Positions 2,420 to 8,493 of a stretch of DNA of 64,000 nt are shown in pieces (the stretch's first letter is position 1; every line of letters starts with the position of its first letter). The notes beneath the pieces are model-generated. The model was not told the DNA's origin and searched no databases. It saw only the letters and a program-made list of their open reading frames with translations. The stretch is from Streptomyces albogriseolus (GTDB taxonomy: Bacteria; Actinomycetota; Actinomycetes; Streptomycetales; Streptomycetaceae): positions 337,567 through 401,566 of the forward strand of contig BMVA01000006.1 in NCBI GenBank assembly GCA_014650475.1, written 5' to 3'. Position numbers and translations under genes: made by a program.

Positions 2420-3386
2420 ATGGCAGTCAGGTTCGACCTGCATATCGCCCGCCAGACATTGGACGAGGCGTTTAGGCAAGCGATGGAAGCAACTTCGCTA
2501 CCAGAGGCGTGGCTGCACCTTTCGCGCTCACTGCGCCAGGAAGAAGCGCCACGCACTTACACCCCCGCGCTGGGTACCGCACTCCTCGCTCGAACACTCG
2601 ACGAGACCGTTGACCCTCGCTCTATCAAGCAGCAGACACACAATGCTCGATCCTATTCGGCTCGAACCCTATGCCACCGCGTACTTGTACCCGCTTCCGT
2701 GGAACTCGGTTTCGACCTGCACACCGCAGGAAGGGAACCTTTCAACAACCAGCCCTTTTTCCGCTGCGACCATTGGGACGAGATACCCCGACCTGAAGCG
2801 GAAAAGGGGACGCATTTCGACAGGGTCGATAAGGCGCTGAGACTTCTCGATCGGCAAGACTCGCAGGAATGCAAGTTGGCACTTATGGCCTTCCTGAAAG
2901 TCTGCTCCGAGCATTCAGAGTACGACAAGAAGCCGAAATTCACTGCCCGCCATATGGCTGGCGTGCGCAAAAATTACGCGTGCGATCCCATCCCTATAGA
3001 TGGCGGCCAAGCTCAGGTTTTCAGGGCGAGGGACAAGTCCACGGGATCCGTGGTAGCCCTGAAGAAGCTCCGCACACCGCTAGAGCGCCGCGTCGCCAGA
3101 ATGAGGCGGGAGATTGAAGTCGGACTATTCCTGAGCGGTCATCCTCATGCCATGCCCATTCTGGACCACGCGCCAGATCATAGCTGGTTCGTCATGCCGT
3201 ATGCGCAGGGAACGGCCCTGGACTACCGCGATGACCTACGGAACGACGACGCGCTGGCCCTTCTCCTGCAATCCGTATGTTCGGTCCTTGAGGTAGCACA
3301 CGAAAAAGGCTATGTGCACCGTGACATCAAACCGGCCAACATTCTTCTGCTGGACGGCCGGTGGGTGGTTGCTGACTGGGGCATTG

Positions 3387-3389
3387 TTA
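3387..3389. repeat. Target duplication TTA, left copy
   Basis: TTA flanks the insertion on both sides (3387-3389 and 4620-4622). The 3-bp TNA-type duplication is typical of several IS5-family subgroups, and removing one copy restores the kinase frame exactly. Confidence 0.85.
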
Positions 3390-3428
3390 GAGGTCATCTC
3401 ATTTGGCTACCTCGGTAGGCTGTGGGGC

Positions 3429-4237
3429 GTGGTGGGGATCGTTGAGCGGCTGGTGCCGGACGAATTGTGGGAGTTGTTCCAGCGGGTGGTGCCGGAGGCG
3501 CCTTCGCGGCCTCAGGGCGGTGGCCGCCGTCGGCATGGCGACCGTGAGGTGCTGGCCGCGATCGTGTTCGTGGCCACGTCGGGCTGCACGTGGCAGCAGT
3601 TGCCCGCTGCGTCGTTCGGTCCGTCGGGGGCGACGGCTCACCGCCGTTTTGCCGAGTGGACGAAGGCCAGGGTGTGGGCCAAGCTCCACCGCCTGGTCCT
3701 CGATGAGCTGGGCTGCCGCGGCGAGTTGGACTGGTCCCGCTGCGCGATCGACTCGGTAAACATGCGGGCCCTGAAAAGGGGGACCTGACGGGCCCGAATC
3801 CTGTCGACCGGGGCAAGTACGGATCGAAGATCCATTTGATCACTGAGCGGACGGGTCTGCCCCTGTCCGTCGGCATCTCGGGGGCGAACCTGCACGACAG
3901 CCAGGCATTGATCCCCTTGGTGAAGGGCATACCACCAGTCCGCTCCCGCCGCGGGCGGCGGCGACGCAGGCCGGACAAGCTCCACGCAGACAAGGGCTAC
4001 GACTACTCTCACCTGCGGCGATGGTTACGAGGGCGAGGCATCAAACACCGCATTGCCCGCAAAGGGATCGAGACCTCGCAGCGACTCGGCCGCCACCGCT
4101 GGACCATCGAGCGCACGATGTCCTGGCTCGCCGGCTGCCGCCGCCTTCATCGCCGTTATGAGCGCAAGGCCGAGCACTTTCTGGCCTTCACGAGCATCGC
4201 CTGCACCCTCATCTGTTATCGGCGGCTCGTCTGCTGA
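3429..4237 (+). CDS. IS5-family transposase made by a -1 frameshift
   Basis: The first frame (GTG at 3429 or 3432, to 3788) encodes the N-terminal region with VPDELWELF and TWQQLP motifs and the first catalytic Asp (AIDSVNMRAL). At CTGAAAAGGGGGACC (about 3771-3785) a -1 shift joins it to the second frame, giving GDLTGPNPVDRGKYGSK, which runs to 4237. The second frame holds HADKGYDY (second Asp) and TIERTMSWL (Glu), completing the DDE triad. The A4G5 run is a classic slippery site, so this is programmed frameshifting and not a mutation. The fused protein would have about 269 residues, normal for the family. Confidence 0.85.
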
Positions 4238-4622: not shown

Positions 4623-5092
4623 GGCGTCCCCGAGGGATGACGACCGACCCTCAGAGGACGAGGATGGGTGTAGCTTTGGGATCGGCTGGGTTTGCCGCCC
4701 CCGAACTGGAAGACGACGCTCACAGCGCAGGGCCGCAGGCCGACATATACAGCCTGGGCCAATTCGTCGGGTGGGCAATCACAGGAAAGCGCCCCCGCGC
4801 GAATATTCCCCTCCTACCGGAGAGCGGCGCATGGCGTGCGGTCGTAGAGACCGCCACGAGAGACGACCCCGCCATGCGGCCCGAGTCCGTCACCGAGTTC
4901 CTCGAAATGGTCACCCGCGAAACACAAGTTCCCATTAGGTCGACTTCTGGTTCTCATGTTCCAGCAGCCGAGTAATCCTGCGGGCTGCGACCACGCGTTT
5001 ACCCACTGAGCGGATGCCAGCCGTCGCGGCTGCCCGCGGATCGAGAGGGGCGCTGGGTTAGCAGGCAGCTCGCCTCACGCGCTGGCGGCTGG

Positions 5093-5986: not shown

Positions 5987-6768
5987 TCACCGCACGCGCG
6001 TCACGGTGACCACGGCATGCCTCGTCGTCCCCGCCAGCACCTCGACGAGCAGTCCGGACTCCGCCGCCGTGAACGACTCGCCCCCAGCCGCCCGACCTCG
6101 CGCGGCCGGAGCAACGGCCACCAGCGCCGCCGCGACCTGCGCGGCCAGCTGCGCCCCGAGCCGCTGAGACAATGCAACACGGCCGTCAGGCAACCGCACC
6201 GCCAGCGCCCGCGGCCGACCCGCCGCCCCCGTGAACCCCACCACCTCCGCGTCGATCGTCTCCGCGTGTCTGACCTTCTTCCACGACGACGACCGACCCG
6301 CCCGGTACGGCGACCGCCCCGACTTCGCCACCACCCCCTCCGCACCGGAGCCGGTCAGCGTCTCGTACCAAACCCGGGCGACCTCCACGTCTTCCGTCGC
6401 CGACACTGCCTGAATTGGCGACCCCTCCGGCAGCCCGGCCACCATGTCCAGCATCAAGGCGCGCTGCTCCTCATACGGACGCCCCCTCACATCCCCGGTG
6501 GGCAACGACAAAACGTCCCACACGATGAGCAGCGCAGGTGCCGCGCCGCCAGCTCCCGCGACCGTGCAGGCGAGGAAGCCGCCCGAGCCTGAGCGGCCTC
6601 GAACGACACCCGCCCGCAACCACGACGACTGCCTCGCCGTCCAGGACGACACCAGGCGGCAGGGCCATCCCCGCCACGGCAAGATCCATCCAGGGCGTCG
6701 TCACGTCCCGACCCGACCGCGCTTGAAGTCGAACCGTCTCAGGCAGCCGCCACAAAACTGTCCGGTGA

Positions 6769-6773
6769 CCGTC
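6769..6773. repeat. 5-bp target duplication of the cassette (CCGTC)
   Basis: CCGTC occurs at both edges (6769-6773 and 8363-8367). Read on the minus strand this is GACGG of the ligase KLDGHR codons; taking one copy out rebuilds AAGCTCGACGGTCACCGG. Confidence 0.75.
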
Positions 6774-8362
6774 CTTCTCCAGACTTCGGCATGTCTCACG
6801 AGACAATCCGCGCTCCGTTGTAGAACCGGGCTGGCTGGTCGCTTGACCCTGCCCAGGACGCTGCGTCGACGCTGAGGCGTCAGGGGTTGCTGACCCTGAA
6901 GCGGCGGAACATGTCCGGTATGAACTGGCGCATGAGGTCCCGGGCGGCATCAAGGTGCTTCAATTCGTCATGGCCGAAGCGGAACACCTCGTACCCCCTG
7001 AGCTTGAGGTCGCGGTCGGCGGCAACCATCTCCGCGTACTTGGCGGTGTCCGGGATGCGGCCGCGGTCGCGGGTGTAGTGCTGCGATCCGTCGACCTCCA
7101 GCACGACGCGCTGTCCGTGAGGCAGCAGCAGGAGAAAGTCCATGCGGGAGCGCAGCAACGCCTCAGGGCCGCGCTCTTGGACGGTCTTATGGTCCCAGTG
7201 CAGCCACACTTCAGGGAGGAGAGCCGGCACCTCGACTGAGGGTTTGAGAATCTCGTGGTAGGCGATGTAGAGATTTCTCTGGCCATCCGAGTTCTTGGGC
7301 AGGCTCTTGAGGAGTCGTTGGTAAAGGTTTTTCCTGGCGTCGATCTCGCTGCTGAACTTGCGGGTGGTCTGCCACCAGGCATGCACATCACGCCAACGCA
7401 GCCCCTCGATGGGAATTTCCCAGTCGTAGACGAGGATGTCGTCCGGGTCCCCTCCGGCGATCTCGATGTCGTTGTCGACCGAGGACCGGAAACGGATGTC
7501 CGGTTTGGCGAGAGAGGCGAAAATTATGTTCTTCGGTCGCCGGTTGCCGTGCAGTCGCGTCGACACCATGGTGAACAGGGGATAGCCGCCGTCATCGCCG
7601 GTTAGTCTCAACTCGACCCCAGCAGGGCGGAGATAACCGTTGACCGTGCTGACGGTTGCTCGCTGTAGGTCCTCGTCAAGGAGGACGTCCGCCGATACCA
7701 GGCCCTCCAGGAAGCGGGCAAACCTGGCGTCTCCAGCCTCGAACACACCGAGGTTCTCGAAAAGGACTTCTGCTGACCAGTCCCCGGGGTTGCGGAAGAC
7801 GTGCCGCTCAATGCGGTCTCTCAGCGTCACCGGCCGCCTCCCATTCAGCAAGTCATCGATGGAGGGGCCCGGCTCCTCGGTGATCCAAAACCGGTCAAGT
7901 AGCCGGAGGAAAGGTGCGTGGTTCCGGGCGAGCTCCGACAGGTCGAGGGCTCGCGCCAGCTCACGGCGAGCCTTTTTGGGTATCTTTAAGGGAGCGTCCT
8001 CTTCCCACAGCAGGTCCTCCATTTGATAGCGGACCGACGCACTCACATAGAAGTAGCTCTGTTCCAATACGCGTCGCGTGACCTGCGGCAGCTCGGCATC
8101 TGCTACCTGACTGAAGCTCAGCTCAATCCGCTCGCGCTTGCTACCGGCGTCCTCAGGGACCGGTGGCATGCCCAGTTGTTCGAGGGCCGGGGTCAGCTCG
8201 CGGTGCGTCAGGCTGCCAAGTCCAGCGACGACCTCGCCGACCAGTGTGCGCAGCGCCGAACGATCCCTGATATCGACCATTGGCAGATGGTCGCAGAAGC
8301 CGAAGGAATCCGGCAGTGGCACCTGGGCATGGGCGATGAGACACATTGAGGTGTCTGGAGAA
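6774..8362 (-). mobile_element. 1589-bp transposon-like cassette with inverted repeats and a nuclease gene
   Basis: The ends are imperfect inverted repeats. The left end reads CTTCTCCAGACTTCGGCATG then TCTCA; the right end read inward is TTCTCCAGACACCTCAATGT then GTCTCA. Ten bases match exactly at the tip and the inner ATGTCTCA/TGTGTCTCA also matches. A 5-bp duplication flanks it. No transposase is inside; the only gene is the nuclease. This is the structure of a non-autonomous element moved by a transposase in trans, or of an element whose nuclease drives its own movement. Confidence 0.75.
6880..8280 (-). CDS. AbiJ-like / PD-(D/E)XK nuclease carried by the cassette
   Basis: About 466 residues from ATG at 8280. 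The N-terminal 100 residues (SALRTLVGEVVAGLGSLTHR, ALEQLGMPP, GSKRERIELSFSQVAD) resemble the AbiJ N-terminal domain found in phage-defence proteins. The last 110 residues are a restriction-endonuclease-like fold: RMDFLLLLPHGQRVVLEVDG followed by SQHY, then a helix with AADRDLKLRGYEVFRFGHDE, much like DUF559/Vsr-type nucleases (Asp, then E-x-D). The frame is also open backward into the ligase start at 8451, so a ligase-nuclease chimera is possible. No good ribosome-binding site precedes 8280, leaving the start uncertain. Probable role: abortive-infection or restriction-type nuclease. Confidence 0.7.
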   Translation of the reverse strand: MVDIRDRSALRTLVGEVVAGLGSLTHRELTPALEQLGMPPVPEDAGSKRERIELSFSQVADAELPQVTRRVLEQSYFYVSASVRYQMEDLLWEEDAPLKIPKKARRELARALDLSELARNHAPFLRLLDRFWITEEPGPSIDDLLNGRRPVTLRDRIERHVFRNPGDWSAEVLFENLGVFEAGDARFARFLEGLVSADVLLDEDLQRATVSTVNGYLRPAGVELRLTGDDGGYPLFTMVSTRLHGNRRPKNIIFASLAKPDIRFRSSVDNDIEIAGGDPDDILVYDWEIPIEGLRWRDVHAWWQTTRKFSSEIDARKNLYQRLLKSLPKNSDGQRNLYIAYHEILKPSVEVPALLPEVWLHWDHKTVQERGPEALLRSRMDFLLLLPHGQRVVLEVDGSQHYTRDRGRIPDTAKYAEMVAADRDLKLRGYEVFRFGHDELKHLDAARDLMRQFIPDMFRRFRVSNP

Positions 8363-8367
8363 CCGTC
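8363..8367. repeat. 5-bp target duplication of the cassette (CCGTC), second copy
   Basis: Partner of 6769-6773. Confidence 0.75.
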
Positions 8368-8493
8368 GAGCTTCACTTCATACCACCAGCGCGGCCCGGT
8401 CGGCAGTTGCGGCACCAGCTCGGCCAGGGCGACGTCGACAGGGAACTCCACCCCGCCACCCTCAAACGCCGCCCGGGCCGCCCGCGCGCCGGA

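Follow-up and report, generated by a model that had tools for sequence, protein, structure and literature searches.

Integron gene cassettes comprise one gene each and are mobilised in trans by a tyrosine recombinase, and mobile insertion cassettes and MITEs consist of the termini of an autonomous DDE transposon placed around unrelated cargo. Among elements that encode tyrosine recombinases themselves, GInts carry a four-gene operon (ginABCD) at one end together with cargo, insert site-specifically in conserved genes and are bordered by imperfect direct repeats, with a 6-nt staggered exchange, as set out in the main text of PMC5385486. Strand-biased circularizing integrative elements (SEs), which the accessible text of PMC10214605 describes from Gammaproteobacteria only, encode IntA-Tfp-IntB-Srap (an ordinary recombinase, a fold protein, a large recombinase and a small protein, in this order) and have C/C' ends around 6 bp; according to the same text, SEs and Tn554 keep the native 6 bp on the recombinase side and bring the donor's 6 bp to the other. 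Tn554 and its actinobacterial Tn554-like relatives are tyrosine-recombinase transposons with one main target, imperfect inverted ends, a 6-bp footprint and a TnpC-like small protein (PMC3414803, in the parts available to us).

The window analysed here, the whole 64,000-nt stretch from Streptomyces albogriseolus, contains a mobile cassette of 1588 bp (6775-8362; GC 0.62; contig C6 of an 8.07-Mb genome) within a gene predicted to be a spare ATP-dependent DNA ligase. The cassette tips form a perfect 10-bp inverted match (left, 6775, + strand, TTCTCCAGACTTCGGCATGTCTCACGAGACA; right, 8362, - strand, TTCTCCAGACACCTCAATGTGTCTCATCGCC), and an inner TGTCTCA is present in both ends at unequal spacing (7 nt left versus 9 nt right); the imperfect terminal inverted repeats that a preliminary description had placed at 6769-8367 are thus real, the cassette with both flanks covering 6769-8368. 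The distal (D) end (6775-6805, + strand) reads TTCTCCAGAC-N7-TGTCTCACGAGACA, where the inner part (6792-6805) is a near-palindrome with one mismatch to the family form TGTCTCATGAGACA, and is 93.5 % identical over 31 nt to the D end of a full-length element at locus L099. The recombinase-proximal (P) end (8337-8362, - strand) reads TTCTCCAGAC-N9-TGTCTCA. Inspection of ORFs and Pfam matches revealed no recombinase or transposase gene between the ends (6775-8362), and comparison with full-length elements revealed neither a ginABCD-type operon nor a remnant of one in this cassette.

Flank translations place the cut in the ligase after K-L-D, within the next G codon. The N-terminal remnant (8363-8451, - strand) ends ...WWYEVKLDG, while the C-terminal remnant (5987-6774, - strand) begins DGHRTVLW..., changes frame near 6600 and returned a PF01068 match over 5987-6682 (E=6.6e-10); three other ligase-domain genes score above the Pfam cutoff in the same genome. 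When the cassette and one flank copy are removed, ...WWYEVKLD-G joins HRTVLW... in frame, as read from the two flank frames, in agreement with the earlier statement that the codons K-L-D-G-H-R are rejoined. The flanks are an imperfect 6-bp repeat, CCGTCC (6769-6774) versus CCGTCG (8363-8368), with 5/6 bases identical; on the coding (minus) strand the proximal copy, inside the KLD-G codons, is CGACGG and the distal copy, differing at base 1, is GGACGG. The 5-bp CCGTC duplication proposed earlier is more fittingly seen as part of this imperfect flank, and the distal flank (6769-6774) may be read as a footprint carried over from a previous site.

The cargo is a predicted nuclease of 466 aa (6880-8280, - strand), assigned from Pfam and plasmid homologues as an AbiJ_NTD3 domain followed by a DUF559-like (PD-(D/E)XK-type) part. 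The N-terminal domain is well supported (PF18860: E=3.1e-33, 115 bits against a cutoff of 32.5), whereas the DUF559 match (E=0.012) lies below the Pfam cutoff; the AbiJ-like nuclease cargo and lack of a transposase reported previously are both borne out. The motifs R401-M-D-F and E417-V-D-G-x-Q-H-Y are invariant in 10/10 nuclease homologues, including D403, E417 and D419, the putative catalytic residues of a PD-(D/E)XK-type nuclease. A PDB sequence search returned two matches, neither credible (E about 0.4), and PADLOC returned a weak match (E=0.071). No stop interrupts the nuclease frame between the ligase start at 8451 and 6880 (523 aa), and the ligase start reads through the P end in frame into the nuclease; in locus L019, unlike in the window copy, the ligase frame stops just inside the element end. 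Since six plasmid homologues are annotated from an ATG that aligns with 8280, the real nuclease gene is probably 6880-8280.

Relatives of the nuclease were found on linear Streptomyces plasmids (57 records matched; seven loci examined), the six aligned homologues showing 61-81 % identity to the window nuclease. The best plasmid DNA match (82.8 %) spans 6861-8323, falling short of the cassette ends by 86 bp on one side and 39 bp on the other, and no cassette ends were found around the plasmid homologues in the seven loci examined, where the gene context differs from locus to locus. The nuclease gene was therefore most likely captured as cargo, as judged from these alignments. One plasmid homologue adjoins a gene annotated 'abortive infection family protein' and another lies near a SAVED-domain gene. 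A search with the nuclease returned some match in 18/100 genomes (own included); within these loci and their 1.5-kb flanks the tip, with one mismatch allowed, occurs only at the window locus and at L019. Loci L018 and L019 were matched via the ligase part of the query: L018 is an empty ligase, and L019 is a second insertion, in which an identical end interrupts the ligase at the codon used in the window and leads into different DNA. A second cassette with this nuclease was not found in the searches of genus genomes and plasmids. The window's genome also encodes a second, distant nuclease relative (G000:C29:20043-20708; 44 % over the C-terminal part).

Across the genus, the bipartite end TTCTCCAGAC-N6-11-TGTCTCA was found at 65 exact places in 41/392 genomes against 0 for the reversed control, which puts the cassette ends far from chance. 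A loose-spacer tip pattern run on the window's own genome was uninformative (42 matches with up to two mismatches versus 24 for the reversed control). Sixty of the 65 places lay in the stretches analysed, the other five being four mirror-image copies in genomes G293 and G347 and the window's right end; six inherited repeats of a single SpoIIE insertion, along with a mirror copy in G188, were removed, which reduced the 60 to 53 distinct ends, all of which were classed save one (L256). In G293 and G347 the ends come as mirror images, one near either end of the chromosome, which fits copies lying in the long terminal inverted repeats of a linear chromosome. D ends combine a short spacer, mostly 7 nt, with the palindrome TGTCTCATGAGACA, and P ends have a spacer of 8-10 nt.

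Using a codon-frame test that has orientation built in, we placed 43/52 ends (23/27 D and 20/25 P) in a ligase KxDG frame, reading DG or K-x-D. tblastn recognised a ligase for 23/53 ends only, the P-side remnants being 20-30 codons long, and the codon test was therefore used instead; all 23 tblastn matches place P on the N-terminal and D on the C-terminal part of the ligase. The target ligases are of several kinds (KFDG, KLDG, KWDG and KQEG-type flanks). Nine of the 52 ends lie outside the ligase frame (L083 twice, L084, L086, L089, L099, L104, L257 and L263); by eye, L084 is a degraded ligase. In the named collection, ends were matched in at least 118 stretches, many of them outside Actinomycetota and chance-like by look; among the matches listed, 22/33 D-type and 26/71 P-type ends are in frame in a ligase, and a few of the P ends with odd x codons may be chance matches. 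The named and genome sets overlap, and their counts are kept apart.

Pairing of P and D ends yielded 35 complete elements, the shortest measuring 545 bp and the longest 21.6 kb. The genome set and the window supplied 23 of them, and the other 12 came from the named-record matches listed, which overlap the genome set. These pairs are not independent, since L099 is counted twice (two P ends) and seven are closely similar copies of one SpoIIE insertion, and at least one pair was missed (L105/L234, with D at 3175, P at 4712 and GGACGG and GGTTGG as flanks). Ligase codons are present on both sides in 28/35 pairs and on at least one side in 31/35. The flanking 6 bp are identical in only 8/35, so a perfect target duplication of fixed length does not describe the family; the preliminary description had anticipated other copies with both ends in different flanks, as found here, and with 5-bp duplications, in place of which we found 6-bp flanks that mostly differ.

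The differences between the flanks are sided. In the genome set (n=20) the P-side x codons are TGG (7), TTC (6), CTC (4), GTC (1), CTG (1) and CGG (1), with TGC or TTG in 0/20, while base 1 on the D side is C in 12, G in 10 and T in 1. A search for homologues of the SpoIIE-bearing ligase gave matches in 136 genomes, and of 30 loci examined 8 were occupied. The empty ligase genes sought as a check were found: five (L337, L338, L342, L347 and L349) join both flanks with a 5-bp overlap (GACGG/GATGG), and the base before this overlap is G, as on the P side, not C, as on the D side. The P-side codons, D-side base 1 and five empty homologues agree at family level with the SE-type footprint rule, suggesting that the P-side 6 bp are the target's own, whereas the D-side 6 bp look as if brought from the previous site, as in SEs and Tn554. 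The window cassette (P CGACGG, D GGACGG) would then have come from a site with G before GACGG, for example a CTG leucine codon or a ligase of the KWDG or KQDG kind; for this copy, in a KLDG ligase, the codon test does not discriminate, as CTC and CTG both encode leucine.

Two full-length elements with the same ends, the largest of the family and located in genomes G214 and G394, carry a tyrosine-recombinase operon directly inside the P end, the operon starting about 120 bp from it. The G214 element (6.0 kb) lies outside a ligase and contains a complete operon with ORFs of 485, 633, up to 853 and 138 aa; the G394 element (21.6 kb) lies in a ligase, and its third operon gene is split by other DNA (about 12.9 kb of other genes at L096/L097). 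ORF1 matches Phage_integrase (E=1.2e-6), with XerC/D models below their cutoffs; ORF3 matches Phage_integrase below the cutoff only, and ORF2 returned no integrase match in Pfam. The R...HxxR...H...Y residues were recognised by eye in both ORF1 and ORF3; in ORF2 the set is degenerate. The autonomous operon is predicted to encode a tyrosine recombinase (ORF1), a recombinase-fold protein (ORF2), a large tyrosine recombinase (ORF3) and a small protein (ORF4).

Relatives of ORF1 at E<=1e-60 occur in 25/392 genomes, and a copy of at least 64 % identity in 4/392 (G394, G214, G167 and G406) with the best four candidates scored per genome. In G167 a P end lies just upstream of the ORF1 relative and the operon is internally reduced, while in G214 a second P end is found outside the helper element. 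At L099 (2606-9854), tandem P ends precede one D end, enclosing a DUF4037 segment and then the full operon element; the segment is 87.8 % identical over 1184 nt to L121, itself in a ligase, and the arrangement looks like a two-unit array. The window's genome contains no close ORF1 relative (best matches 29-31 % identity), so the window cassette is probably immobile there now. Distant recombinase clusters are present in this genome on contigs C23 (three operon genes matched) and C41 (two).

Pfam named ten kinds of cargo in the family, including SpoIIE phosphatase, methyltransferase, LysE, GPP34, DUF4037, FAD monooxygenase (not in a ligase), pentapeptide repeats, TetR regulator and glyoxalase alongside the AbiJ-type nuclease; most of them are not defence genes. 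The cargo of L155 and L135 matched no Pfam family, no convincing gene was found in L069 (the same element as L092), L077 or L081, and a transporter in L244 was named by eye. The cassettes lack a complete recombinase operon. Fragments of it are retained in three: L091 encodes ORF1 residues 1-125 followed by ORF4 residues 96-138 and aligns with the G394 island at 87 % identity over 502 nt, and L135 and L079 retain shorter pieces. These remnants indicate that at least some cassettes are deletion derivatives. Similar cassettes were also found in unrelated flanks, indicating that operon-less cassettes moved as units: the SpoIIE cassettes L098 and L113 are 89.6 % identical over 1675 nt with unlike flanks, and the glyoxalase cassettes L110 (ligase) and L228 (another site) are 94.9 % identical over 1227 nt, again with unlike flanks. 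Several genomes have inherited one SpoIIE insertion in place, and the LysE copies L087 and L119 have a common downstream flank.

Taken together, the common ends, target and orientation, the two operons, the three remnant-bearing cassettes, movement as units, empty sites and footprint asymmetry lead us to regard the window cassette, with a probability of about 0.86, as a helper-dependent, non-autonomous member of a tyrosine-recombinase island family that targets the ligase KxDG codons. The recombinases of a helper element would bind both inverted tips; in a circular form these tips would lie opposite one another with 6 bp between them (GTCTGGAGAA-6-TTCTCCAGAC). Strand exchange would release the circle, or copy it out, together with 6 bp from the donor site. 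Integration would then take place at the GACGG core in a ligase gene, always in the same orientation, so that the 6 bp next to the proximal end are those of the target and the 6 bp next to the distal end those of the donor. Cassettes would arise by deletion of the recombinase operon with the cargo kept. The circle and the action in trans, like the function of the nuclease, are what we infer, and the descent of the window cassette from a full-length element, given that it retains no operon remnant, rests on its ends of 31 and 26 nt.

Several observations weigh against this helper-dependent reading. The ORF1 copy (at least 64 % identity, best four candidates per genome) occurs in 4/392 genomes against 41 with exact ends; the one complete helper operon (G214) lies outside a ligase, the ligase-inserted one (G394) is broken and that of G167 is reduced; the window's genome lacks a close ORF1 relative; Pfam recognises no integrase in ORF2 and only a sub-cutoff one in ORF3; and, as noted above, 9/52 ends are outside the ligase frame. 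We know of no observed excision of these elements. In SEs, complementation in trans with intA or intB failed to restore recombination (PMC10214605, accessible text), which argues against easy action in trans, and in GInts complementation worked (PMC5385486, main text).

Compared with the described systems, the cassette family shows the site-specific insertion and imperfect direct repeats of GInts, whereas the ginABCD operon is missing from the window cassette, complete in G214 and split in its third gene in G394. The cassettes further differ from GInts in carrying mostly one gene, in their ligase KxDG target and in their clear inverted-repeat ends; the words 'ligase', 'Streptomyces' and 'inverted repeat' are absent from the main text of the GInt paper (PMC5385486). 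The operon order and the ends around 6 bp resemble those of SEs, a kinship judged by gene order and sizes with our ORF roles assigned partly by eye; the SE targets given in the accessible text of PMC10214605 differ from the ligase KxDG target, and 'internal deletion', 'MITE', 'Streptomyces' and 'ligase' do not appear in that text. Tn554-like elements share the enzyme class, the single main target, the imperfect inverted ends, the footprint and the small protein. However, they have two recombinases against the three-protein set found here, the full-length relatives encoding three long genes and a small one rather than tnpA-tnpB-tnpC only, and 'ligase' is absent from the accessible text of PMC3414803. 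As for integron cassettes, attC/attI sites and arrays contrast with the two inverted ends and dispersed gene target of the ligase cassettes.

The preliminary description had called the inverted repeats and the duplication typical of transposons, and inverted termini, a short repeated flank, the lack of a transposase and many copies of 0.5-3 kb would all suit a MIC- or MITE-like cassette of an unrecognised DDE transposon, moved in trans with a target duplication of 5-6 bp. We strongly disfavour this interpretation, as one target position and orientation account for 43/52 ends, the flanks are identical in 8/35 pairs only and their asymmetry is sided, and both full-length elements encode tyrosine recombinases; the sole transposase to come to notice within an element, in L121, is by eye an IS110-like ORF and looks like a secondary insertion. 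The family therefore departs from DDE-type MICs and MITEs in enzyme class, in being site-specific and oriented and in producing no true target duplication. Insertion in highly conserved codons, together with a nuclease cargo bearing the conserved R401-M-D-F and E417-V-D-G motifs, would suit a homing endonuclease that drives the insertion into the ligase. Yet cassettes whose cargo is unrelated, or in which no gene is evident, occupy the same site, and the seven plasmid homologue loci examined lack the ends; target specificity thus belongs to the element family and not to the nuclease, and we give the homing explanation next to no credence.

An unlikely, though more plausible, account is that the window cassette is a dead relic, an old recombinase insertion that lost its operon after insertion, never moved as a cassette and has since been inherited vertically. 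The host genome without a close helper, the lost frame of the target ligase, the SpoIIE insertion inherited in place and the shared downstream flank of the two LysE copies all fit such a history, whereas the SpoIIE (82-95 % identity, over the greater part or the whole of the cassette) and glyoxalase (94.9 %) cassettes in unrelated flanks speak against it for the family, not for the window copy. On a separate question, why the cassette is kept, selection for protection against phage by the AbiJ-type nuclease, a candidate function, is a tentative suggestion that we hold somewhat doubtful. The AbiJ N-terminal domain, the conserved nuclease motifs and the abortive-infection and SAVED-domain neighbours of two plasmid homologues are in its favour; against it, the PADLOC match is weak, no credible solved relative was found by sequence, most named cargo kinds in the family are non-defence and mobility would be left unexplained. 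The suggestion of a new kind of mobile defence unit accordingly holds for the mobile cassette with inverted repeats and not for a special defence unit, the nuclease being one of ten cargo kinds.

While the mechanics of GInts, SEs and Tn554 are known already, neither a ligase target nor operon-less single-gene cassettes of the GInt/SE type were found in the literature searched, which included few subscription papers and no preprints; operon-less single-gene passengers of such islands are now shown, and their target consists of codons that every host supplies. We lean slightly towards a wider view in which actinomycetes would have an integron-like economy without integrons, many single-gene cassettes being moved in trans by rare islands to a universal ligase site, with the footprint recording the previous ligase. 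In this view the related islands in ComEC and EF-G codons suggest that the codons of invariant catalytic motifs form a general class of target because every host has them. Strand bias in GInt movement has been called elusive (PMC10214605, accessible text), and this question becomes testable through the occupied and empty sites that nature provides and through a footprint derived from the donor. Reading between these ends in ligase genes also offers a new route to cargo genes, possibly including defence genes.

Other GInt/SE-like islands of the genus, with other end sequences and about 35-49 % ORF1 identity to the query, were found in further conserved genes. Flank translations show ComEC cut just after LTH in five loci (L289, L291, L293, L295 and L296; PF03772 for one) and an EF-G-like gene cut before DGHRINLIDTPGH in L292 (PF00009). 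We take the ComEC LTH to belong to the metallohydrolase motif and the EF-G site to be the G3 region, before the IDTPGH region; insertion in catalytic-motif codons may thus be a general habit of these islands. By eye, the islands at L288 and L290 have sigma-factor and HATPase N-box flanks. Elsewhere in the window, a fusion of an RE_SacI-like domain with a protein kinase (2420-3418) seems to be interrupted by an IS4/5-type element (3312-4237) whose transposase occupies two ORFs; a short kinase-like piece follows at 4637-4975.
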